Shown: positions 20 through 58,514 of the stretch, in pieces
Layout: every line of letters starts with the position of its first letter
Position numbering within the stretch: position 1 is the stretch's first letter
Assembly: GCF_037975245.1 (NCBI RefSeq)
Contig: NC_092572.1
Location: 12,216,269 to 12,280,268 of the forward strand
Origin: Apostichopus japonicus
Lineage: Eukaryota; Echinodermata; Holothuroidea; Aspidochirotida; Stichopodidae
Length of the DNA stretch: 64,000 nt
Reading direction: 5' to 3'
Notes under the pieces: generated by a model
What the model saw: the letters and a program-made list of their open reading frames with translations, nothing else
Told to the model about the DNA's origin: nothing
Databases searched by the model: none
Translations under genes and position numbers: made by a program

Positions 20-330
20 TACCAACGATCAAACTTGTCGAGGTCAAATGAATTGATGGTGGCAGTAAAAAATATTGTCAAAATATTGGCTCTGAGTGAC
101 CAAGTTTCTAGCATAGTTTGTGAGGCAATGGCGACGATTTGAACATTCAGTGTTGTACCCAAATATGATAGAAAAAAAAAACTTTCTCTGCTCACCCATC
201 ATCAAGCTTGTTGAGGACAAATTTACTTGATTGTGGCAGTGAAATGTATGTCGACATTTGAACATGAGTAAGCATAAACTGAATCACTAGCATATCTGGG
301 AGCATTAGCTATACGCTATACAAGTCATCA
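20..330. repeat. Two-copy divergent tandem repeat, period about 168 bp
   Basis: The stretch around 23-90 (ATCAAACTTGTCGAGGTCAA, then TTGATGGTGGCAGT) recurs in diverged form around 191-258 (ATCAAGCTTGTTGAGGACAA, then TTGATTGTGGCAGT). A further similar pair follows (CTAGCATAGTTTGTGAG / CTAGCATATCTGGGAG). The array may continue left of the window. No coding function is seen. Confidence 0.55.
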
Positions 331-3204
331 GCATTCGTCCAGAAATATGCTAGGATTACTATACAACTATGGTCACCAAGAATTTAATTGATAGACGTCT
401 GTTCATATCACCATTGAGAAATGTTATTTCTTCTCCTCTCTGAGAAATCACATTGGCTAATTCCACTCTCCAGTTCAAATATTTTGGAGAGTAAGGTACT
501 TACCGTGAACTTACTTTCAGAAACGGTTAGCCTGCACTTCTAACATACTTTCCGAGGTATTACGCAACGAACCTTTCCCTTTAAACAAAGTGGTCAAGGC
601 GGGTGTCGAAAATCTTTTCGAAGCTAAAAAGTCAAAAACATTTTCTAGAGAAGCAAAGGGGTTTTTCCATCGATACATTTGTCTGCAGAATTGATATTTA
701 CAGCCCCAACTTCGAATAAATAAAATATATACGTATAAATTTTATAGAATGTACACACAAATTGACGAGATTTAGAGCAAAGAAAGGGGGGGGGGGGGGA
801 TAAAGGCTTTCATTTTTTTTTTTTTTTTGCATATCAAGTCTTATATTCTATATCTTAATAATCCATTCGGTGAATATCATAAGCGCTCATTATATCAAAT
901 TGCAATATACAAATGGTACATCGACGGGGCGAAGCAGGGACCCCTCCCTCAAACTGATGGAGGGGCTGAACATTCTAAACTTGGTCAGCCTACGCCCACT
1001 TCCCCTTATAGCTGCTTAAATCCCGTGATGCCTATCAAATTGTTTTAATAGTTAAAGGTTTTAGCTAATCAATCATTTTTCTGGTTCGTGTTTATCGGAA
1101 AATCTGCAGCCATCCCACCCCGTACCCATCGCAACTACGACCACACCGAAGATACAAACTGACCATAAATGCTATTCTTTCTAAAGCTTCTCTTCTTGAG
1201 ATGAACATGAACGGAGTTAATTTACTTATCATTAGCATACATTTATATTATTGTTCATTAATGTTTATATATACTTAATATTAATTCAATTTTCATCCAC
1301 AGCGATTACAACACAACAGCAATGTAATAAAAATATTTACGTCCCTAACTACGTAAAAAGAAGTAAAGTTCTTTCATAATAAAAGAAAAAAAAATGATTA
1401 TTTAAGAAAAAAATGGGGAAGGGTATAATGTTTTCTCTAAAGTAATATTAACAAAGCGTATAACTTTAGCATCATTTAGTAAAATGATATATTCAATTAG
1501 AGGTAATAACTTTGGTGTGCTTTGGTTTTTCTTGTCGTTGCTTCGGTTGTTTTTTTGTTGTTTTTTTGTTGTTGTTGTAATGTATTGGTTGCCCCTCTCC
1601 CCCTCCCCTACTTTCACTCGAACCACGCTTATCATCTGGGTCATGGGGGTTCAGCTAGGTAGATTAAGAATGCAACTTTTTTTTTTATAAAGATTGCAAA
1701 TTTCAAACTGGAAGTCAAGAATAACCTCTATGCCAGCTGCTTACTCTCTAGATTCTTTCAGAGGGGTGGGGTGGGGTGGGGGCGGCAAGCCCTCCCTAGG
1801 CACTCTCATTCCCTCTTAATCTTGGGTTTCAGATAAATTGTAACTTTTGCAATCATTACGGCGTGTGTGTGTGTGTTGGGGGGGGGGGGGGCGAAAGGGG
1901 GAGGGAGCGTATGGGGGCTTGTTTGGTGATGTTTCTGGCACCTTGATTGTTAAACGGTATCTCAAGAATGGAAACTTGAGTCGATATCATAATATGTATG
2001 CAAAATATGTTAATAAAGTATGTTTAACAAAGTATGTTTAACGTGTGAGGGAGGTTCGGTGGGGTGGGGATGGGGTTTCAAAATGAGTATGGAACTAGTT
2101 TCAGTATCATGTTTGGGTGAATGCATGTGTTACTTTAACCCAAGTCGATTACAATACATGCGCGATATACCCACTAACAAGAGGCAACATCATCAAACTC
2201 AACGGCCGAAAGCAAATAGGTGTTTTTAAATTTATTTTTAAAGCAGCATTTTGCGTCCTTTTCTATGATTTTTCTCAACCTCACTGATTCCACTTTGCCA
2301 TAACGACATACATAACTAGCTAATCTATTTATATTTTACTTCAAATGGTGGCATAAAAGTCGAAAAATTTGCAACTTTCAACTTTGTTGTTCTCCAAGAT
2401 ATTTTCCGTTGGGAACCCAATAAACCTCGCCCATAATATGAATATTTAAACACTACGAACGTCATTGACAAATACGTAATATAACACCACGCTTGTTTGT
2501 GTACAGTCTATATGGCAGTTGTACCAGGGAGTTCCATAACAACTCCCTGGTTCATGTGGTTGTACCAACGCAAAGTCTTGAATCTATTTTTAGCAATGGG
2601 CAATAACTAAACCTGCATCTCTGATTGGTTGCATTCAAACTAGTGGGTTTGGCGGAATTGTATGCGATTAATTTTAACTGTGGAATTTGTCGAGGACACT
2701 CTTCTCATTATCGACATTAAATCGTTAATTACTCGCTAATTAACGCTCTTGGCAGGGTGAAACTTGGATGGTATCTTAGTTTGCTGTTTTATGATTGATA
2801 CATGTAAAAAAATCGATGCACATGATAAAAAGGTGGAAAAAAGTGACCCAACGCAAAATGCTGCTTTAAGTTGGAGAGACCTTGGAGAACAACGGCATTT
2901 TAAACTTGCAGTACTTTTCGTGCAGTTATCATATAACATAATATCCTATTAGTTGAGTGTGACACTAAACCATATTGCTTTTCACGTGCATCATAATTAT
3001 CTCCCTTGTGACAGGTTCACTGACAGGGGAGCAATAATGGTATGGTGTTTATTACTTTACTTCACATCCACCCCCAACTCCCCCTGCGGCTCGTGTCCCA
3101 ATTTTCGGCGACCCCGCGAGGTTTTCGATGTCCTATTTCTAAAAAAATGTTTTTTTTTTTGCAAAGTGGTTGTTTTTGTAATTTGTTTATTTTAGTTGGC
3201 AACT
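331..3204. other. Intergenic, no gene recognised
   Basis: Only short ORFs without recognisable protein signature. It contains poly-G and poly-T tracts near 786-828 and 1876-1891, a GT-rich stretch near 1862, and the strong hairpin listed at 2523-2551. I see no exon with convincing splice sites. Confidence 0.5.
2523..2551. repeat. Perfect 11-bp hairpin, possible MITE terminus
   Basis: ACCAGGGAGTT at 2523-2533 pairs exactly with AACTCCCTGGT at 2541-2551 across a 7-nt loop. Palindromes like this are often the ends of small non-autonomous DNA elements, but only one is seen here, so the class is not assigned. Confidence 0.5.
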
Positions 3205-3352
3205 GTATGTATATATATATATATATATTTATATGGAAATTGTAGTGAGTCGGAAAATCCAGTACAGTGAAAAAACTTCCAGCCTCCACCGGGATTCGAA
3301 TCTGGGCCTCCCGCTTTATATGCGGACACCCTAACCACTAGGCTATGGACGC
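3205..3352 (-). mobile_element. tRNA-derived SINE
   Basis: Read on the minus strand from 3352 to 3282 the sequence folds like a decayed tRNA. The acceptor arm is GCGTCCA with TGGAGGC (six of seven pairs). The A box is TAGCCTAGTGGTTAGGG, the anticodon stem CCGC/GCGG is intact, and the B box is GATTCGAATCC. The T stem has mismatches and the apparent anticodon would be ATA, which argues against a working tRNA gene. A non-tRNA body follows down to an (AT)n tract at about 3205-3230, the usual layout of a tRNA-derived SINE with a simple-repeat tail. Confidence 0.7.
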
Positions 3353-4299
3353 TGATTGTATGTCCAGAGGTTCGAAACCGGTAAGGAAGGTCGTAGTTCC
3401 ACTGCAGGGGTCATCTTCGTTGACGTCGAGGGCTAGGTCGGGCCTCGAGCAATTATGTCACCAGGACCCCTCAACTTTGAGGTCTTCTTTTCTCTTTCAT
3501 AAGTATATATTATTCTTGTTGGGTTATACCACTGAATTTTCGATGGTGTTTTAACGTTGAATACTTGAGTTAAATACACTTCCTGCATGTTTACAGATTC
3601 TTTCCCCACCTTTCCATATTGGAGTGACCCGCGGTAGAGCTGATATGTGACCCTTAAAATTAGCTCCAAAGTTAATGCATACTATACCATGCATGTTTCC
3701 GCCCGAATCATTCTTATTGATATTGTATACATCTACGACAATATTTAACGTTGTAGCTTTGCTGCCAATGCTTACTAATGTATCATGAATATTTATGAAT
3801 ATTAATCTTGACTGTATTCGAAATCACGAAAGGCTTGCTTGATAACTGGTGTAACCAAGCAATTCATCATGTGGCATCTTTTCATAATACTACTAACTCA
3901 CTGAAAGAGTTTTTTACTCATGAATATGCAAATACCTCATGCAGAGATAACTTGAGGAAAGAAATATTTTATTTTGCTTCCGAAACAAAACGAAATAAGT
4001 TCTTCCTCTATGACACTGCGGATGCTACACAATAATGTATTTTTAAATTAAAAGATGTCCCGAATTGTCTTGAAAAGACGAAAATTTCGATAAACTTCGA
4101 AAAAAAACTGGAAATCTACATATGGACAGCAACAAATACTGTTATATGATATAAAGAAGAAGAAAAAAAAGATTCTTTATTCCCGAAGAGACTGGAAAAC
4201 ATGATACGATTGTTTTCTCTCTTTTGTTTCTCTTTTATTGTTCTTGTTCATTTACCACAGGATCGCAGTTGTAATTAGTTCACATATCATGTCGTCATG

Positions 4300-4317
4300 T
4301 GACGTCACGTGACGTCA
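4300..4317. promoter_or_regulatory. Double CRE palindrome sharing an E-box
   Basis: TGACGTCA occurs at 4300-4307 and again at 4310-4317. The junction forms CACGTG at 4306-4311. TGACGTCA is the consensus CREB/ATF site and CACGTG the canonical bHLH-ZIP E-box. Whether it is bound is unknown, and no promoter is identified beside it. Confidence 0.45.
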
Positions 4318-4695
4318 CGACCTATCATGATATCAAATGCTAATGTTGTTTAATGGCGTCGAAATTTCAAATTTCTTTACTTTGATAGGATGTTACTGGT
4401 GGATTGCCGAATGAGTCGGATGCACGATATCAACCAATTCCCAGACAAGTAAATTCATAAATTTTGCCAAAAATGGAAATTCCCTAAATATGTTTCAATC
4501 AATCCTCACACATTACCGCAGTAGTTATGTGTTTGCACTATTCATTTACATTTTGGTGTGGTTTTTGTTTTTTCCGTTCTCATATCATTTTTCTCCCCCC
4601 CCCACCACTTTTTTTTTTTGCCTCTCTTTCCTATCAAATTTCTAAACTTGTGGTGGTTTTCTTTATCGCAGTCATATTTCTTTGGAGTCATAACG

Positions 4696-4725
4696 TGACG
4701 TAAGCGTGACGTAAGCGTGACGTGT
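4696..4725. promoter_or_regulatory. Three TGACGT sites at 11-bp spacing
   Basis: TGACGTAA at 4696-4703 and 4707-4714, and TGACGTGT at 4718-4725. They repeat every 11 bp, about one DNA turn, so proteins bound there would lie on one face. ATF/CREB and PAR-bZIP factors use this type of site. It may also be just a short minisatellite. Confidence 0.4.
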
Positions 4726-6947
4726 CAGTATTTTATTATTAGACCAAATCTCAAAAGGGAAAATATTTCTTTCTAAAATAAACATTTTTTAACTACAAAT
4801 ATTCGATCGAAAGTAGAACGATCCAGCTTTGAAAAAAACAAGAAAGTTCTTTCAGAGTGTATACGTCATGAATAATTAATTGCTTTGGTGATAATGTTTA
4901 TTCATAACCCATATAGATACTGTTTGAAAAATTGTAAACCATTGGCGCGCTTATGTCACGTCATGAGAACAAAATATTTCATCTCATTAAGCATGTGGGC
5001 GGTTATTGCATCCTAACAAACACTGTGCCTCTATTTAAAATATTCTTACAAGACGGATTTAAACAAAAAGGCTATTTATTTTTCAAAACATTTCCCTTCC
5101 GAAACTACCTATACATTTTTTGCGTTTCATCTATCATTTTTGTATATTTATTTTAAATATTATTTAGTGACTTGAAGCAATCACACCTTTTTTACTTGGC
5201 AACGGGGTTTTTTTCTTATATGAAATAAATAAAGTAATTGCTATGTTTCGTGAAGAAAAAACAAATTGCGCCATTCCATACAATTTACTTCACATAAGTC
5301 AGAAAACTAAAACGGACCAACAAAAAATAGTTAGCAACAATTAAAACCTAATATCCAGTTGAAATAAAAAGCTTGTTTCTCATTCTCTCATAAAGTTAAC
5401 CCCCCCCCAACCACCCCCCCAAAAAAAACAATGCGTCATCAAACGTTACACGTTTCATAGCGCGACCACATAACTAAAAACAAATACATGGAAATAAATC
5501 GAAGATAGAAAGGTGTACAATCATTTTTTGCACTTCTTTCACAAACTTCGTTATAAAAAAAAAAGGATATTTCTTTCATTTCGACTGTTTTAATAATAGC
5601 GGGAACTAAATTTACTCGAAATTTCGCGCCAAATTTTCGAATATTATTTCCTGAAAGGCATTTTTGTTTTTGGATCTACCTTTATAAATGTGTCTTGTTA
5701 ATCTACAAGTAAGTGTACGTAATTGGAATGGAGTGGCACATAATATCACAATGGGGTCAAGTAAGGGAGGGGGGGGGGGGTGAGCTATCCAACAGTGTTG
5801 CTATAACAATGACTTTATCCTCGTTTTAGTCAAACGTTCATAGTAACTTTGAACAATTCTTATAATCGTGTGACTGTTCCAAGTTTCTATATATGCTGGT
5901 CATTCCTAGGGCTTATCACCTACCCCCATGTACTCTTTACTAACAAACAAAAAACAATAACCTATTGTATTTTAATGGTAAATTGAGAACAAGATTATAT
6001 CTTTTCGATGACCACTCTACATAAGTTGGATAAATGTGGATATGAAACTATAGAGAAGAACCTATTAAATTCTTTAGTTTATCGCAGTTTATGACAAAAA
6101 AAAGGTCGAATTAAATTACCTGGCATGCGCCCGTTCCCCCCCCCCCCCCCTTCTCGACCATTACACCCTCCTCACATGCACACGCACTTTTCATTTCTTT
6201 ATTTCGGAAATCAAACATCCAACTCAATCCCCCTAAACTACCTCTGGATTCATCGTTCAATGACGTAACATGTTGTTATGCTTTCACTTACGAATCATTT
6301 CACGTGTAACATCAAATAAAAAATTACGTTAAAAACAAAAGACATACGTACAATATTGCTAAAAGCTCTCATTTCAGCATTTTTGAAATTTTCATTTGTT
6401 ACAGAACGTTGCATGATATCATCCTTTCGTGCCTCCCTTCACATTTAAAAATATTTTATATCATTTTTTTTTATTTTTGAAATAATTTAAAACAATTTTT
6501 CCTTAAATAGTTAGACAAAAATCTTGCGACATCCATTCACATACAATGCTCAGTAAATATGGTAGAGATAAAAAAAAAGTTTACACATATTCAGGGGAAA
6601 AAAAACTATTAATTTCATTTTTGATTATTTTGATATTTCTTGGTTGAATTTTGTAAAATAAATTACAAGTGATACTTCTTTCTTTATGTCATTTAAAATT
6701 CATTTTAATTTTTTTTTCATCATGTTTTTTTCTTGTTTCTCAATATGATTGTTGTTCTCTCTTAAATTCACTTTGATTTAAAATGCACAAATCACCCATC
6801 AACCACCTCTTTAGGATCTCTACCAAAAATAAGGCATCTGGCAACATTTACCGAAGACGTTAAATCAATGTACATCGTCAAATACAGTCGTTTGCATTAC
6901 AATAACACGTTTGGCATCATATGCATGCATGCATGCATGTGTGTGCA

Positions 6948-38300: not shown

Positions 38301-41300
38301 CACCATCAAAGTCTGGAACAGCCGGAGTGGTGCCTGCACCAGGACCCTACTGGGTCACGAGGGGTGCGTCTGGGACCTCGCTCTCAAAAGACATTATCTC
38401 GCATCGGCATCGCAGGACAGATCTGTGAGTCTCTTTGCAGCTTTAGTTTAATTGCTGGTTTAAGACATTTAAGAAAACAAATTTGCCATGTTGATAACTT
38501 TTTACAGCCTGTGGTTGGGAGGTATGGTGGTGTAAGGTTACTAGGCATGTTCCTGTAGTTCACCTAAGTGTGTTATAAACATGTAACAACACAAATAGAC
38601 ACTATAGTTGCTGTGTCCGTAAGTCAACTTGTCACCCCTTTTACGAATGTAATTTTAATCTACACAGCCTGAACGAAAACTTGAAAAAAATTTATACAGT
38701 GAAAGAAGGAAACCTCAATTTTGTTTCTTAGGCGTTCAAACATGAATTATTATTTTACACAATATAAACCACAATAATACCTTAAAAATTTCGAAGTTTG
38801 GGGAATATTTCCTCGCTTCGACTGTTATAACTGAAAGACCTTTACCAGTTAAAATCACGTTCTGACGGAATCCGATCATTGAGTAGATGAAATCCAGTAG
38901 GTGAAGGATAAAACTAAAACACAGATCGAAAGCAAAGATACCATCATAACCTTTGACCTTTGAAAGAAGATGTGTTCACTTAGCCACACATAGATATTTA
39001 GTGAGTCTAAAGGTTTTTTTTTTTAAAGAGGGGTTGGGGCGAGGGCACATTAAGAGGTTCTTCTGTAATGTCTGTATTATGCTGCCACTCTGAAACTTGT
39101 GAGTGAAAGTTTACCGGTAAAGTTTGCAGGATGTATAAACATTATTTTCAAACTACATTCAAAAACAAAATTGAATACAAAAGATTGTGTGTAAAATAAT
39201 TATGGGAGCATTGCTGGATTCAAAATGTTTCTTTGTTAACAAGTTGTATGTTTTGACTCTCAATACAGACTCTCAGGACAGAGTTTAATTTTCTACGAAA
39301 AGTAACACCGTCTATTCCTAAATATCATTTATTTCCTTAACAGGTCAAGATATGGGACCTGGACAGCTGTACTCTCATGCATACACTGGCTGGACACGCC
39401 CAAGCAGTGTTTTGCGTCGATATGGACAAGGAAGCCACGACGGTCATCTCGGGATCTGCGGACAGGGTAGGTGGCCAGAATGACTTAACAGGTTTTGCCG
39501 TTGCTAATTGCTAAAGGGCTTTGCTGCCGAGGCTTTTATCGTCATGGTATTAATAAGCCATGACGGCATATTTCCAGTTGCGTTTGCACTTAGCGGAATT
39601 GTTGGTTACAACTCTGAACAGCAAATATCTCGGCTCTCCTTGTTGTGCTGAATAGGCGGACAAAAACCTCTCCAAGTTTTTGACGTTTGGGAGTTAAAAC
39701 GAATGATTGAGGGGGCTATAAGGGGAACCGAGAAATGGTACATATGCTGAAATGGCCACGATGCTCTCTATAAACTTAACAAGTTACAATTACCCAATTT
39801 GAATATTTCTCTCCCAGTTTTAGAATGTATCATTTTCACAATCTTAATAACTTTTTGAGAAACTTGAAGTGAGCCTCAACTGTAGGAGAGAGATGACACA
39901 GGTCACACAAGACAGTCTTTTGATGCATTTCTGTAGTACCTTCAAACTTTGTGTACAGTGAATGTACCTCTATAAGATATAGTATAGGTGTGGGAAACAC
40001 TGTCATGGTGACCTGTCCTACATCCTTACTTTATTCTTGAACCTCCGACTCCAACTTCCCATGAATACAAGCATGTGTCAAAAGTGTTGCGGCGAAAGGC
40101 AGGTTTTTTTATTTTGTTAAATTTTTTATGAGCAGAGTTCTGTCTTCACAGTATTAAGTTAAGCTTCCCTTCAAAATGTTCTCTTTTGTTTTATTTTCAT
40201 TGTTATCTATCAAATTTAGAATAATAATACATTAAACATCATTTTGTGGTTCTTTCAGAGTGTAAGAATCTGGAATCTACATTCCGGTCAGCAGATGAAG
40301 GTTATATGGGTGAGTCAGTCGACCTCTGTGATGGCCATCAGCTACGATAGGGGGTACATCGCTTGCTCCGTGGGCGAGGTGGTATCTCTCTGGAGGGTGG
40401 AGACAGGGGCGTGTATCCGGAAATACCAGGAACATGAAAAGAGGTGGGTTACTGTCAGGGTATATATATATATCCCACATACCACCTTGAGACCAATTTG
40501 GTGTGTGTGGGTTGCCACCACCCACTTGTTGTTTGTGGGTTACCCCACTCAATTGGTGTGTGTGGGAGTCGAGGTGTGGATTACCATATTTGAATATATT
40601 ATTCTCATTTTACTAACTTTTCAGAGTTTCATTTCATTAATTTTGCATTGCTTGTAATTCGTGGGAGGGAGGGAGGGGGTGGAGAGTGGTGTGGAATACC
40701 ACCCTTGTAGTCCTTTAGTCCTACTCATTATTATTCTCTACTTTTCACAGGGTTGAAGCAGTTGGACTAAAAATAGACAATGCTAAGATTCCAGACAAGC
40801 CTAGAGGATTGCTAGTCACTGCAGGGGAGGAAGGACTTGTCAAATACTGGAAACTTCACAGGTATGTTGTGCCTATTTCAATCGCCTCGGGATATAAAAA
40901 GGACATTCTGGTGTCTAAAGTTGATTGCTTTCCAAAATTGCTGGACATTTTCTGGCAAAGTTGGGTCAATGCAGCAGCCTCGTCGCATATTTACATCGGG
41001 CAGATGTGATTTTTTTCAAATATTTTTGTGGTATTTTGAGATTGCATCTGGCAACAACCGAGTGAAGGATGTTACCATGGCAATAAGAGCTGTAAATGTT
41101 TTTGGGGGGTTTCCTTTATAGCATTTAAATCATTTATCCCGAAGGAGAAAATAATGTTTCTACAAAATTGTTGCATTTTGATGACGTGATAAAATATAGA
41201 GGAACATTGACAACTTAGCAAGTGTTACAAATCTATCAAATTTCAAGGATAAATCAAGAAGAAGATTTGATAGGAAATAGGGTTGTCTTTTCATATGATC

Positions 41301-47884: not shown

Positions 47885-48290
47885 CCTTTTTCCTCGTCGA
47901 ATGAATTAAGTAGAACATGACAGTGGTTTTCTATCTCCTAGTGTTTTACCCCCACTCCTACCCCCCCCATTACCACCCACCCCACCCCCCTTCTACCTTC
48001 TCAAGTATGCAGTATTGTTCCGTCAAATTTTCCATCTTTTCCATGGTCGATTGAAGAAAGTAGAACATGACAAGGGTTTTCTATCTCCGAGTGTTTTACC
48101 CCCACTCCTACCCCCCCCCCCATTACCACCCACCCCACCCCCTTCTACCTTCTCAAGTATGCAGTATTGTTCCGTCAATTTTCCATCTTTTCCATGGTCG
48201 AATGAAGAAAGTAGAACATGACAAGGGTTTTCCATCTCCTAGTTTTTTACCCCCACTCCTACCCCCCTCATTACCGCCCCGCCCCCCCCC
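47885..48290. repeat. Tandem repeat, period about 150 bp, 3' of the nuclease-like gene
   Basis: Nearly three copies of a unit with TAGAACATGACA (47911, 48061, 48212), GTTTTACCCCCACTCCTACC and CAAGTATGCAGTATTGTTCC. It is absent from the paralogous region at 58.3 kb, so it expanded after the duplication or was inserted here. Confidence 0.85.
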
Positions 48291-48367: not shown

Positions 48368-48561
48368 TTAAATTTGGGAGGCGAACAACGTCACAGGTGA
48401 CTTCACGACGGTGATTAGAACGACTGTGTTAGAGACTAATTCGTTGGGTAGTTTCTTGTATTCTTTGCGCAGTAACTTCGCTGTATCATTTGAATTTGTC
48501 CAAATATGAAGAATCTGTTTATGCCATCTTTCTATAGCATTCCTTGTTGCATTCAATATAC
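48368..48561 (-). CDS. Nuclease-like gene, exon 3 and stop
   Basis: Acceptor TTTTCTTTTGAAG, phase 1 in, stop TAA at 48370-48368. It encodes RWHKQILHIWTNSND, LPNELVSNTVVLITV and KSPVTLFASQI. The paralogous exon at 58514-58291 uses the same acceptor sequence TTTGAAG and phase. Confidence 0.72.
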
Positions 48562-50888
48562 CTTCAAAAGAAAAAAAGAAGAACGAATGAGTATATGATG
48601 TCATAGATAAAAGTCTCAAGTATAAACGAGCTAATTGTCGGTGTTTTAGACAGGGACGTTACTAGAGTCTTGTGAGTGGGGGGGGGGGGGGTAGAATCAT
48701 ACTATTCCAACTGGGTGGAATCAAAAGTAGCTAGGGGTGTCGAACCGCAAGTTCGAAATATTCAGTAGCATAACACGAGTGGGTTGTCAATTCTTTGTAC
48801 CTTCAATATGATATACCGGGTACTAAGTAATATGCTAGGTGCTACAATCGAACGCCAATTGGCCGTATTCAGACAATTTTAAAGTTATAGTTTATAGTAT
48901 TATCAAATTATGGGCTGTACAAGGAGTTAGAAACAAGATTTCGGTTAATTGTAAGTTCGAATTGTGTCCAATCATGTAATAATGTAAGCGTAAACTTAGA
49001 AAAAAAAAAAAACTATTTGGGTAGAGACACACCTCAACCCCCTGTAGCTTTGTCCCTAATGTGAGACTAAGAAGTCCAGCTAATTTAATTGAACAAACCA
49101 TAAATATTGTATAAAGATACAAACTAGACGGGTAGCACCGATTTTAGCGGTTTAAAACTTATGAAATTTAAATTTGCCAGTTATGTATCCCTTTCTGAAG
49201 CGGCCTGTATATTCCACCCAGGCGGGCCTGGGGTTAAAATTACGGGAAAATATGGGATAAAGAATAATGTGTTCTCATTTTCATAGTATACCACTTAAGG
49301 AACAATGAAGACATCAAAAAGGGTGCGCTGTGACAAAATTGTCTCCAGGGTCCCAACCTGGTCCTCGAAGGTCCCTGCTTAAACCCTGCCCCACTCTTTG
49401 TTGTCCCCACCGCCCCTTACACGGCCACTATACGTGCATAAGGTTAGGTAGTCATTTAACCTACCTTTTAGCTTCTTTGTGAGTAGATGGATTGCATCTT
49501 CTTGTTCGAAGTCTCCCCGGTACTTCCAGGCTCTGGTAACGGAGACTCCTAGGGTATTATTGTTCAGTTTACAGGTATAATCAGTGATAGAGCCTCCTGT
49601 TGGGAAGTACTCGATCTCCGTCTCCGTTTTGAGTAAAGTAGCCCCGAAGCACCGATGAAGGAGTTCATAACTATTTATAGATAACATATAAGTTATTAGT
49701 ATTACGTAACTCAACGAGTATCACCGTAAAGTGCAAGACACGGGTATCAATACTATATTTATATAGAGAGTGTAATGACGTATAATTCATCATGATATTA
49801 CGTCACTCAAATAATAGGATAAAAACTTTACGATTAACCATATATTATGTCCGTATAAGCGGACGTGTTTGATGAGTGGGGCAATGTGTTGGCCAAGAGT
49901 AGGGGTAAGGTGATGGGCAGTAATATGTCGGTATCTCTGCATATATTGCAAATCAATATTACTGAATATGTTTCTTACAGTTTACAGGAATCATTATAAT
50001 GTCGAGCAGTGCGCGCGGTGTCGTAAGTTTTGAAATATGTCATTGCATGAATGACAAAAATATGTCATTGCATGTAATTTCGTACAAAAAAAATTAACAT
50101 CACATTTTTCATGTGATGAATGATAAGCCACTCCAAACCTAATTCGCTACGCCCACCGCTTTCCTCTCCTCCTCTCCCTTCCCAAATCAACCCTCCCCAC
50201 CCTTCCTTTCTCCTACCTGCCTTCCCTCACCGCCCCTTCCCCCACCCTTTCCTTCTCCTGCCTGCTGCAAGTTCCCTCACCACCCGTACCCCACCATCGT
50301 CTTCCATCACCAACCCAACCCACCCACATCTCATATCCCTTACCCGCTACTACAAATTAAAATCATACAAAATGTTAAACCTGAAATAATTATTTCTTAC
50401 CTTAGCACTTCAGACTCTACCGAACTCCCACCAGCATTCGGTGTGTTTCGTATCTTTTCGGCTTTCTCCGACAAATCCATATCGCTGAAGTCCCTCCGTT
50501 GCTCGTAATAAACAGTTATCAGAGCGTTCCTGCCCAAGGAGGACACGCGCTCTTTAAAGTGCATAACAAGTTTTATGTCTGTCACTACCGTATTAAAATT
50601 ATTTGAAATGTAACCGCCAATCGCTTTACTATGTTTACTACGCTTAACATTATTATATCTCAAACTCCGAGAGGTAGGCCTATTTACATTGCGGCTTCTA
50701 ATTTGGGGGCGGTCTTTTATTTGCCCCTCACGTAGTCCTATGATCATCTTTGTATTGGGTGAAGAGTAAAACCCACTGGGGGTTTGACCCCACCGTCGCG
50801 GTGCTGGGGTGGAAGCGCCTTCTCCCCCTCCTGGTACGTACAGCCCCCTGTGTATCTGCCTTTCCTTCAAAACCCCGACGTTTTTCAT
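48368..50888 (-). CDS. Unrecognised protein with PD-(D/E)XK-nuclease-like core, 3 exons, 295 aa
   Basis: Three exons (50888-50401, 49670-49465, 48561-48368) join in phase with GT-AG borders into 888 bases. Residues 1-100 are basic and low in complexity (PGGGEGAS, TPAPRRWG), probably disordered. Residues 100-295 look globular. Order seen: a helix GGSSVESEVLSYELLHR, strand-like GATLLKTETEIEYF, a turn PTGGSITDY, a strand LGVSVTRAW, a helical DAIHLLTKKLKG, then HKQILHIWT, a Lys-rich helix, and the hydrophobic strand TVVLITV. The order Glu-helix, then Asp after a strand (SITDY), then a strand IGVxVx resembles PD-(D/E)XK nucleases, in which the strand would read IGVEVK. Here the E and K positions read S and T (GVSVTR), so catalysis is doubtful or uses other residues. 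This fold assignment is inference. A paralogous last exon at 58.3 kb supports a real coding gene. The start is the first ATG of the open frame; upstream exons cannot be excluded. Confidence 0.7.
49465..49670 (-). CDS. Nuclease-like gene, exon 2 (core strands)
   Basis: Acceptor CTATAAATAG, donor CTAAAAG|GTAGGT. Phase 2 in and 1 out, matching both neighbours. It encodes ELLHRCFGATLLKTETEIEY, then SITDYTC and GVSVTRAWKYRGDF. Confidence 0.72.
50401..50888 (-). CDS. Nuclease-like gene, exon 1
   Basis: ATG at 50888. Donor GTGCTAAG|GTAAGA at 50401, phase 2. It encodes 162 codons, starting basic and Gly/Pro-rich and ending GRNALITVYYEQRRDFSDMD then the Glu-containing helix. Confidence 0.6.
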
Positions 50889-54221: not shown

Positions 54222-56393
54222 TGGAAATTGAAAATGGTGGAAGGGTGGCGACCTCCTCACCTAATAGCCACCCAGTTCCTCTCCCTTTAAGTATTTTTTG
54301 TTTTATTAATTCTTAAATTTGATGGCAATAGCCACAGGTCAAAAAGACAGCTTACCAAACTTCTTATAACCTTATAAATGTTATAACTTAATATAACTAA
54401 TGAACATTTGACCAGCTCCTCTATTACAAATGCAAACAATTTGCAGGAACTCTCAATTTGTTCTCAATTATATTTTGCTTGGAAATGGTGGACAGGTGGC
54501 CACCTCCTCACCTGATGGCCACCCAGGTCCTCCCCATTTTAGTATTTTGTTTTTGTTTTTTTTATTATTTCTTAAATTTGATGGCAATAACCACAGGTCA
54601 AAAAGACAGCTTACCAAACTTCTTATAACCTTATAAATGTTATAACTTAATATAACTATTGAACATTTGATCAGCTCCTCTATTACAAATGCAAACAATT
54701 TGCAGGAACTCTCAATTTGTTCTCAATTATATTTTGCTTGGAAATGGTGGACAAGTGGCCACCTCCTCACCTGATGGCCACCCAGTTCCTCCCCATTTTA
54801 GTATTTTGTTTTTGTTTTTTAATTAATTCTTAAATTTGATGGCAATAACCACAGGTCAAAAAGACAGCTTACCAAACTTCTTATAACCTTATAAATGTTA
54901 TAACTTAATATAACTAATGAACATTTGACCAGCTCCTCTATTACAAATGCAAACAATTTGCAGGAACTCTCAATTTGTTCTCAATTATATTTTGCTTGGA
55001 AATGGTGGACAGGTGGCCACCTCCTCACCTGATGGCCACCCAGGTCCTCCCCATTTTAGTATTTTGTTTTTGTTTTTTTTATTATTTCTTAAATTTGATG
55101 GCAATAACCACAGGTCAAAAAGACAGCTTACCAAACTTCTTATAACCTTATAAATGTTATAACTTAATATAACTAATGAACATTTGACCAGCTCCTCTAT
55201 TACAAATGCAAACAATTTGCAGGAACTCTCAATTTGTTCTCAATTATATTTTGCTTGGAAATGGTGGACAAGTGGCCACCTCCTCACCTGATGGCCACCC
55301 AGTTCCTCCCCATTTTAGTATTTTGTTTTTGTTTTTTTATTAATTCTTAAATTTGATGGCAATAACCACAGGTCAAAAAGACAGCTTACCAAACTTCTTA
55401 TAACCTTATAAATGTTATAACTTAATATAACTAATGAACATTTGACCAGCTCCTCTATTACAAATGCAAACAATTTGCAGGAACTCTCAATTTGTTCTCA
55501 ATTATATTTTGCTTGGAAATGGTGGACAGGTGGCCACCTCCTCACCTGATGGCCACCCAGTTCCTCCCCATTTTAGTATTTTGTTTTTGTTTTTTATTAT
55601 TTCTTAAATTTGATGGCAATAGCCACAGGTCAAAAAGACAGCTTACCAAACTTCTTATAACCTTATAAATGTTATAACTTAATATAACTAATGAACATTT
55701 GACCAGCTCCTCTATTACAAATGCAAACAATTTGCAGGAACTCTCAATTTGTTCTCAATTATATTTTGCTTGGAAATGGTGGACAAGTGGCCACCTCCTC
55801 ACCTGATGGCCACCCAGTTCCTCCCCATTTTAGTATTTTGTTTTTGTTTTTTTATTAATTCTTAAATTTGATGGCAATAACCACAGGTCAAAAAGACAGC
55901 TTACCAAACTTCTTATAACCTTATAAATGTTATAACTTAATATAACTAATGAACATTTGACCAGCTCCTCTATTACAAATGCAAACAATTTGCAGGAACT
56001 CTCAATTTGTTCTCAATTATATTTTGCTTGGAAATGGTGGACAGGTGGCCACCTCCTCACCTGATGGCCACCCAGTTCCTCCCCATTTTAGTATTTTGTT
56101 TTTGTTTTTTATTATTTCTTAAATTTGATGGCAATAGCCACAGGTCAAAAAGACAGCTTACCAAACTTCTTATATCCTTATAAATGTTATAACTTAATAT
56201 AACTAATGAACATTTGACCAGCTCCTCTATTACAAATGCAAACAATTTGCAGGAACTCTCAATTTGTTCTCAATTATATTTTGCTTGGAAATGGTGGACA
56301 GGTGGCCACCTCCTCACCTGATGGCCACCCAGTTCCTCCCCATTTTAGTAGTTTGTTTTTGTTTTTTATTAATTCTTAAATTTGATGGCAATA
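54222..56393. repeat. 258-bp satellite with dimeric higher-order structure, about 8.4 copies
   Basis: Unit landmarks GCAAACAATTTGCAGGAACT lie near 54431, 54690, 54948, 55206, 55465, 55723, 55980 and 56238. The first copy (54222 on) is diverged. Two unit variants differ at ACAGGTGGCC versus ACAAGTGGCC and, in part, CCCAGGTCC versus CCCAGTTCC. They mostly alternate, so a dimer of about 515-517 bp is the best repeating unit; two 68-codon frames 517 bp apart are identical. ORFs in it are chance frames. Confidence 0.95.
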
Positions 56394-56599
56394 ATGTACG
56401 TTGCCTTGCAACCCAGATAGAGATAGTTATTCCCCCTTGACTTAGTGTACACTGTAAGTGATTTACTATTGACATATATATGCATAGCGCAGTACTACAA
56501 TATAGTGCTATGTAAATCTCTATGAATATACACCATGTAAGAGCATACAGTCTTAAAGTTTTATCTGTCAATATAAAGTCAAGTATGACTGGATAAACA

Positions 56600-57745
56600 T
56601 GATGTATATCCAGTTATATCTGGCTTTATATGGCCAGATAAAACTTTATCTGCATATCTGAATTGACTCTTTATCTAGTTATATCTGGCTTTGTATGGCC
56701 AGATAAAACTTTATCGGCATATCTGAATTGACTACATATCCAGTTATATCTGGCTTTATATGGCCAGATACAGCTTTATCTGCATATCTGAATTGACTCT
56801 TTATCTACTTATATCTGGCTTTGTATGGCCAGATAAAACTTTATCTGCATATCTGGATTGACTACATATCCAGTTATATCTGGCTTTATATGGCCAGATA
56901 AAACTTTATCTGCATATCTGAATTGACTCTTTATCTACTTATATCTGGCTTTATATGGCCAGATAAAACTTTATCTGCATATCTGAATTGACTCTTTATC
57001 TACTTATATCTGGCTTTATATGGCCAGATAAAACTTTATCTGCATATCTGGATTGACTACATATCCAGTTATATCTGGCTTTATATGGCCAGATACAACT
57101 TTATCTGCATATCTGAATTGACTCTTTATCTACTTATATCTGGCTTTATATGGCCAGATAAAACTTTATCTGCATATCTGGATTGACTACATATCCAGTT
57201 ATATCTGGCTTTATATGGCCAGATAAAACTTTATCTGCATATCTGGATTGACTACATATCCAGTTATATCTGGCTTTATATGGCCAGATAAAACTTTATC
57301 TGCATATCTGGATTGACTACATATCCAGTTATATCTGGCTTTATATGGCCAGATAAAACTTTATCTGCATATCTGAATTGACTCTTTATCTACTTATATC
57401 TGGCTTTATATGGCCAGATAAAACTTTATCTGCATATCTGGATTGACTACATATCCAGTTATATCTGGCTTTATATGGCCAGGTAAAACTTTATCTGCAT
57501 ATCTGAATTGACTCTTTATCCAGTTATATCTGGCTTTATATGGCCAGATAAAACTTTATCTGCATATCTGAATTGACTACATATCCAGTTATATCTGGCT
57601 TTATATGGCCAGATAAAACTTTATCTGCATATCTGAATTGACTCTTTATCCAGTTATATCTGGCTTTATATGGCCAGATAAAACTTTATCTGCATATCTG
57701 GATTGGCTCTATATCCAGTTATATCTGGCTTTATATGGCCAGATG
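56600..57745. repeat. 65-bp satellite rich in GATA motifs, about 17.5 copies
   Basis: Each unit contains TATCTGGC-tttatat-GGCCAGATA (inverted repeat) and AGATAAAACTTTATCT (inverted repeat, 2-base centre), then GCATATCTGRATTGACT. Two unit types, ACTCTTTATCTACTT and ACTACATATCCAGTT, are interspersed irregularly. AGATAA and TTATCT are full WGATAR sites, so the block holds more than thirty. No coding potential. Confidence 0.95.
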
Positions 57746-58290
57746 GCAATCAACATAGGTTTATTTATTCATTTATTTATTTACTTTTCTCCTCCTATTT
57801 CTCCCTTTTCTCCTTTTTCTTTTCCGATGGTTGTTCTGTTTTTTCCCCTTCGCAACCTGAAAACAGAGATGAAAAACGAGGTGGTTATTTGAAGCGAACA
57901 TGTCAAACTGTAACCAGCACGTTTAATAAACGTTATTACCAATTTGCTGGTCAATAATGTAGGAAAGTTGGGCAACCTTTTCACCCAACGGTTTTTAAAG
58001 TGTACAGGACCTCTACATTCTCAAGTTCGCACAATAGTTTGGTCAAACTTTACTAAATACCCCAACACCCCTCCCGCCCCGCACAATAGAATGCGGCGTG
58101 AGAAACAATCACTTGTGACAATACTTTTGGCAACAAATATAGAAAACCTTAAAATTAGTAGAATTTCTGTTCCAAACAAAGTCATTATTAAAGAAAATGT
58201 TTTAACACAACTCAAGGTGTGACTTGTTTTCTTAATTCTGTTACATTCGTATTGATTGTTGGATAAAATTACAGTCTTAATAGCAGTTAC

Positions 58291-58514
58291 CTCTTCTGCA
58301 TTTCCCGTATTCTCTTGTATTTCTTTGTGACAGTCGAACAACGTCACAGGTGACTCCGCCACGGTGATTAGCACGACTGCGTTAGAGACTACGTCTTTGG
58401 GAAGGTTTTTGTATGCATACTTTATTTTTTTTGCTATGATTTTGGAACCTGCAAACACATGGAGCATATTTCTATCCCATTTTTCTTCTGCGTTCTGTTG
58501 TGCAATATATAAAC
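58291..58514 (-). pseudogene. Paralogous last exon of the nuclease-like gene (partial copy or second gene)
   Basis: Acceptor CTTTTTTTGAAG, same phase as exon 3 of the 48-50 kb gene. It encodes EKWDRNMLHVFAGSK, LPKDVVSNAVVLITV and ESPVTLFDC, clearly related to its partner. It does not stop at the same place: the frame continues through HKEIQENTGNAEE to a donor GCAGAAGAG|GTAACT at 58291, or reads on to about 58021. No copy of exons 1 and 2 was found between 58514 and 64000, so it is either a truncated copy or part of a gene whose 5' exons lie beyond the window. The coding frame itself is not broken. Confidence 0.6.

Follow-up and report, generated by a model that had tools for sequence, protein, structure and literature searches.

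The window analyzed here, a 64,000-nucleotide stretch of the Apostichopus japonicus genome (671.6 Mb, 35 contigs), lies on a 34.6-Mb contig (C12) and contains a gene of three minus-strand exons, copy A (Table 1). The exons are bounded by GT donors and AG acceptors, the introns are in phases 2 and 1, and all three exons join in phase to give 888 nt, or 295 codons plus a stop. A three-exon gene with fitting phases had been proposed from the sequence, and this structure held up: a profile built from 97 bacterial open reading frames (ORFs) and no animal rows matched copy A through all three exons (162.8 bits, E = 7.2e-48), and also matched a sister gene, copy B (116.5 bits, E = 1.1e-33; Z = 20000 for both). 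Exon 1 of copy A is an open frame that ends at the donor CTAAG/GTAAGA. Its final ~45 codons are matched both in copy B and in the bacterial relatives. Residues 1 to ~85 have no counterpart in either, so that the start codon is without support from relatives. Exon 2 matches bacteria and copy B by both tblastn and profile. The pyrimidine tract of the first acceptor, ATCTATAAATAG, is weak, but identical acceptor letters stand ahead of copy B exon 2.

Table 1. Coordinates of the gene pair and of neighboring features; positions are those of the window unless a contig record is named.
Feature	Position	Strand	Length or repeat unit	Description
Copy A exon 1	50401..50888	-	488 nt	Met start, basic N-terminus, start of the domain up to NAGGSSVESEVL
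Copy A exon 2	49465..49670	-	206 nt	LLKTETEIEY (E179), ITDY (D193), GVSVTRA (S206, T208, R209), LLTKKL (K229)
Copy A exon 3	48368..48561	-	194 nt	Acceptor TTTTTTTCTTTTGAAG; WHKQILH (W244), last predicted strand, stop
Copy B exon 1	L021 5311-5085 (contig C12)	-		Past the window end
Copy B exon 2	L021 2282-2065 (contig C12)	-		Past the window end
Copy B exon 3	58021..58514	-		Paralogous to copy A exon 3
Interspersed repeat	48651-49002			In intron 2 of copy A
Tandem repeat	47888-48267		151 bp x 2.5	Just 3' of the copy A stop codon
Tandem array	54228-56394		258 bp x 8.4	Between A and B; 97% matches
Tandem array	56605-57744		65 bp x 17.5	Between A and B; 92%
Open frame	40220-40654	+		Weak WD40-like matches

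Copy B is a complete second gene upstream of copy A on the same strand, also with intron phases 2 and 1. Its third exon, read from window position 58514 downwards, is the paralogous exon that had been cited in support of coding, and it does lend that support. The modelled copy B protein has 312 residues, the final ~100 of which are without counterpart. Identical residues are specified by 87 of the 170 core codons aligned between A and B; differences at codon positions 1, 2 and 3 number 55, 43 and 80 (dN 0.39, dS 0.84; NG86), and the alignments show the conserved Glu, Asp, Ser, Thr, Arg, Lys and Trp to be retained in copy B. A whole-genome protein search revealed no third copy: six of its ten matches at E ≤ 10 belong to A and B and the remaining four (E 0.8–2.3) contain internal stops, which identifies the locus as a tandem gene pair. 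The basic N-terminus described earlier is present in copy A (pI 11.4 for residues 1–118) and missing from copy B (pI 7.9 for the whole protein).

Several other features were recorded at and around the pair. The repeat in intron 2 of copy A holds 42 of 45 scored DNA-search matches, which are 75–92% identical and spread over many contigs; the count is a lower bound because 40 of 278 candidates were scored. The plus-strand open frame, whose WD40-like matches (best E = 0.00011) stayed under the cut-offs, is probably an exon of another gene. Elsewhere in the assembly, COX1 is whole on contig C35 (40-1380, with 11 TGA codons) and in several pieces on contig C29; C35 looks mitochondrial, and C29 is perhaps a second or rearranged copy.

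Related open reading frames in Myxococcota

A viral-contig record, L009, contains a 286-residue ORF with 43% identity to copy A over 121 residues by tblastn, and 44% across the aligned domain. Nine further loci came from scanning genome contigs with two short patterns; they are labelled either Myxococcota or Deltaproteobacteria, the latter being assigned to Myxococcota by the tree tool. A profile built from the first ten loci (L009–L018) was then searched within Myxococcota only, the phylum of Enhygromyxa, where it found the family in 95 of 377 genomes (96 matches, one genome having two). For other phyla the pattern scan is uninformative, because only 10 of the 97 bacterial rows hold either pattern and these are the rows with which the family was first found. 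The 97 bacterial ORFs consist of 90 fetched matches out of the 96, minus three duplicates (of L014, L015, and L017), plus L009–L018; six matches (G300, G285, G362, G306, G194, and G326) were left out. A smaller alignment (A5) holds 66 of these ORFs plus copies A and B, or 68 members. At the level of sequence, these comparisons show that the animal pair and the Myxococcota ORFs have one domain of about 150–200 residues in common.

The family is without a name or model in the Pfam and NCBIfam copies searched, and without a solved relative. No NCBIfam model matched any of the 68 members, no Pfam model reached its threshold in any member with a detailed listing (the best E-values in the member tables were 0.035 and 0.0027, the latter to a viral core protein model in a single member), and the 68-row profile matched no PDB chain at E ≤ 10. 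A literature search found no paper containing the motifs GVSVTRA or LLKTETE.

Plasmid or phage carriage of the family was rejected, since tblastn returned no match in phage sequences (with the copy A core and the L009 domain) or in plasmids (with the L009 domain). Four scans of viral contigs gave one contig, identical each time, or nothing. Within that record (48-5405), the family ORF comes after phage-type genes (pyrophosphatase, thymidylate kinase and RecE-like exonuclease, by PHROGs), and the frames past it look host-like by eye (an RCC1-like lipoprotein and a protein kinase); the record may span the edge of a prophage in a myxobacterial genome.

Enhygromyxa salina (L015) and a Nannocystis exedens metagenome-assembled genome (L017) illustrate the Myxococcota ORFs, which carry the same domain and invariant residues as the animal copies and differ from them in architecture. 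According to a home-made rule, a stricter earlier version of which gave fewer, 88 of the 97 bacterial ORFs have a lipoprotein-like signal, i.e., a hydrophobic segment with a lipobox-like Cys at its end, placed ahead of the domain and followed by acidic or glycine-rich linkers. Among the nine ORFs without the signal, eight have fewer than 50 residues of frame before the domain, and the ninth (L088) has 188. The bacterial ORFs are single-copy and intron-free, whereas the animal genes are paired and intron-bearing and lack the signal, starting with MKNVGVLKERQ (A) and MKKDTTKYTKY (B). Two Cys are conserved in bacteria, at position 95 in 96 of 97 rows and at position 170 in all; copy A keeps Cys170 only, a loss that fits an oxidizing environment for the bacterial proteins but not for the animal one. 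We infer that the domain is probably anchored and oxidized in bacteria, at the surface or in the periplasm, and intracellular in the animal.

Clustering of 1804 flanking frames identified no conserved neighbor among the 97 loci; the largest cluster covered 11 loci, whose frames lay at varying positions, and the next covered 5. A conserved operon partner was therefore rejected, and no neighboring gene points to nucleic acid, which counts against a nuclease role. A role in anti-phage defence was also rejected, as PADLOC gave no match for one family consensus and copy A.

Conserved positions and comparison with PD-(D/E)XK nucleases

Conservation was counted over 98 rows, the 97 bacterial ORFs plus copy A, with copy B left out. 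S156, E160, C170, E179, G204, R209, and W244 are invariant, and D193 (Asn in one row), S206 (Asn in one row), and K229 are each found in 97 of 98. Position 208 is variable (79 Thr, 9 Val, 7 Ser, 2 Ala, and 1 Lys), and so is not a fixed catalytic place, as would be expected if the lysine lies elsewhere. The sole row with K208, L104 (2001-2606, minus strand), also has Asn at 206 and 229; in this one divergent row the lysine may have gone back to motif III. The order given in the sequence-only reading, with Glu in a helix (E160) followed by ITDY (D193) and GVSVTR, is as claimed, and so is the missing E-x-K, with S206 and T208 standing at the positions expected for E and K. The suggestion of an inactive relative, if it means decay, finds no support in these counts: polar positions conserved in 97–98 of 98 rows indicate a site that is kept.

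Set against the PD-(D/E)XK superfamily, the pattern agrees in part. E160 would supply the motif I Glu, a common but not universal feature of the superfamily, and an Asp is present at the position expected for motif II (D193); the (D/E)-x-K of motif III is absent, with Ser at 206 and Thr, Val, Ser, or Ala (Lys once) at 208. D193 and S206 are 13 residues apart, a spacing shared with the Holliday junction resolvase Hjc (1gef), which the cited passage describes with a helix E9, D33, and a motif III of E46-x-K48 (PMC1913061). Hjc E46-x-K48 corresponds to S206-x-T208 in copy A, and no profile or PDB match links the two. The same source gives DUF1626 (PF07788) a predicted order abbbabab and a motif III lysine that is often Thr, with the lysine presumed to have shifted into the helix of motif IV (PMC1913061). 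Like DUF1626, copy A has Thr in motif III and then K229 on the next predicted helix; unlike DUF1626, its family has Ser at the motif III acidic site and an invariant E179 in the presumed first strand, and PF07788 is absent from the Pfam scan results for the family. COG4636/Tt1808, likened to copy A by description only, is presented as a PD-(D/E)XK family with a catalytic Lys that shifted along the chain and kept its spatial place (PMC551604), and further displaced sites are described in another report (PMC1189080). Ser in place of the motif III acidic residue is not among the variants in these cited passages.

Profile comparison with PD-(D/E)XK families, which had been put forward as a check and covered three of the many families in the superfamily, went against the proposal. 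With hhalign scores expressed as z relative to 40 column shuffles, the query domain reached 0.62, 0.73, and −0.39 against Mrr_cat, UPF0102, and VRR_NUC, none of these three families rising above shuffled columns, though they recover one another (z 7.67, 4.25, and 4.50). The unrelated PIN and Usp controls gave 0.29 and 0.82 with the query domain, the reversed query scored equal or higher in four of the five comparisons (all except UPF0102), and pairs involving PIN or Usp ranged from −0.08 to 2.37. Input profiles comprised 8 of 10 loci for VRR_NUC, 27 of 30 for Mrr, 29 of 30 for PIN, and 30 of 30 for both UPF0102 and Usp. Mrr with motif III masked kept UPF0102 (z 9.18) and nearly lost VRR_NUC (z 1.87), so the missing catalytic letters explain the null result only in part. 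Thirty sub-domain comparisons, local and global, gave z from −2.27 to 1.88 (nuclease families −1.77 to 1.71). The EcoRI model PF02963 touched a single member of the 68 (lowest E 0.033) and matched none of four family consensus sequences; on copy A it covered residues 169–251 with 11.9 bits against a cut-off of 22 (E 0.12), and EcoRI was rejected as a true relative because the matches were sub-cut-off and in one member only.

Measured against the superfamily core of order abbbab, predicted structure was equivocal. Chou-Fasman propensities averaged over the 98 rows, a crude estimate, give a helix at 160–170 that continues across most of 171–181, where a first strand would be expected, followed by strands at 194–198 (mixed) and 203–211, a helix at 219–233, a strand at ~247–254, a helix, and a strand at 277–284. 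Covariation over the same rows (Neff 79 at 70%) gave no pairing signal for the core-defining strands and supported only the final two strands as a parallel pair (p ~0.014, uncorrected over 20 tests), which fits a PD-(D/E)XK-like fold yet is not special to it. Given the null profile comparison, the missed first strand, and the scant covariation, we do not assign the domain to the PD-(D/E)XK superfamily. What stands of the proposed PD-(D/E)XK-like core is the E-D order, the 13-residue spacing, and K229 after T208; Pfam and profile support did not materialize.

Interpretation, alternatives, and origin

Our preferred reading, to which we assign a probability of roughly 0.45, is a divergent PD-(D/E)XK-like alpha/beta domain with a rebuilt site that would bind and perhaps cut nucleic acid. 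Under this proposal, a metal ion would be held by E160 (first helix), E179 (first strand), and D193 (head of the second strand), and R209 (third strand) and K229 (following helix) would substitute for the missing lysine. Nucleic acid would be bound, and perhaps cut, outside the cell in bacteria and inside it in the animal. We regard the PD-(D/E)XK-like fold itself as an even call and a working phosphodiesterase as doubtful; the nuclease reading is reasonable, not proven.

That there is a gene at all is hardly in question. The unsupported start of exon 1 could be used to argue for frames open by chance, for a pseudogene, or for bacterial sequence contaminating the assembly, but the presence on a 34.6-Mb contig of two copies that agree in splice sites and phases, an excess of differences at third codon positions, and a bacterial profile match through three exons make this explanation extremely improbable, and we rejected it; that A and B are a real gene pair in a real family is, judging from these features, nearly certain. 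A stronger competitor, with a sizeable minority chance of being right, is another alpha/beta fold, for which the PD-(D/E)XK likeness would be coincidence and the domain part of a surface protein with a ligand-binding or enzymatic site of its own. The silence of the nuclease families while the controls respond points this way, as do the first strand being read as helix, the lack of a solved or curated relative, and the probable extracytoplasmic place in bacteria, where restriction-like nucleases would be unusual. It leaves to coincidence, however, the conserved polar order, the D193/S206 spacing, and the helix with an invariant Glu that precedes them.

The PD-(D/E)XK-like fold might instead have lost catalysis and kept only binding, of DNA, RNA, or another ligand, with the conserved residues shaping a pocket. 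The replacement of the motif III E and K by S206 and by T208 or its Val, Ser, and Ala variants speaks for this, and the basic N-terminus of copy A would suit it, but copy B lacks that N-terminus, and the near-invariance of E160, E179, D193, R209, and K229 from bacteria to animal goes beyond the needs of a scaffold; we consider this version rather unlikely. The fullest form of the preferred nuclease reading is likewise unlikely: an undescribed enzyme family with a restriction-endonuclease-like fold, in which E160/E179/D193 plus R209/K229 would replace D...ExK, residing on the myxobacterial surface and carried into an animal lineage, where the secretion signal would have disappeared, introns would have been acquired, and the gene would have been duplicated.

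The tree pairs A with B (SH-aLRT 100); their shared branch is long (1.03) and stands beside ten Myxococcota rows (SH-aLRT 82). Because the root is arbitrary and the animal branch long, the direction of transfer is not readable from this tree. The gene may have passed from bacteria to animal or the other way, or may belong to a broad eukaryotic family. That myxobacteria have the domain in lipoprotein-like ORFs and an animal has it in an intron-bearing pair without the signal raises a clear question of gene transfer.

About a dozen positions are almost immovable from bacteria to animal in a family without a Pfam or NCBIfam model, which suggests a conserved core with a working but unrecognized site. 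The bacterial members are short, single-copy, and intron-free, and should therefore be easy to test. If the proposed fold is wrong, the family would represent a conserved domain, its fold yet to be assigned, that is common to Bacteria and Eukaryota; if it is true, the family would add a new layout of the site, with substitutions at both motif III positions and selection still maintaining function.
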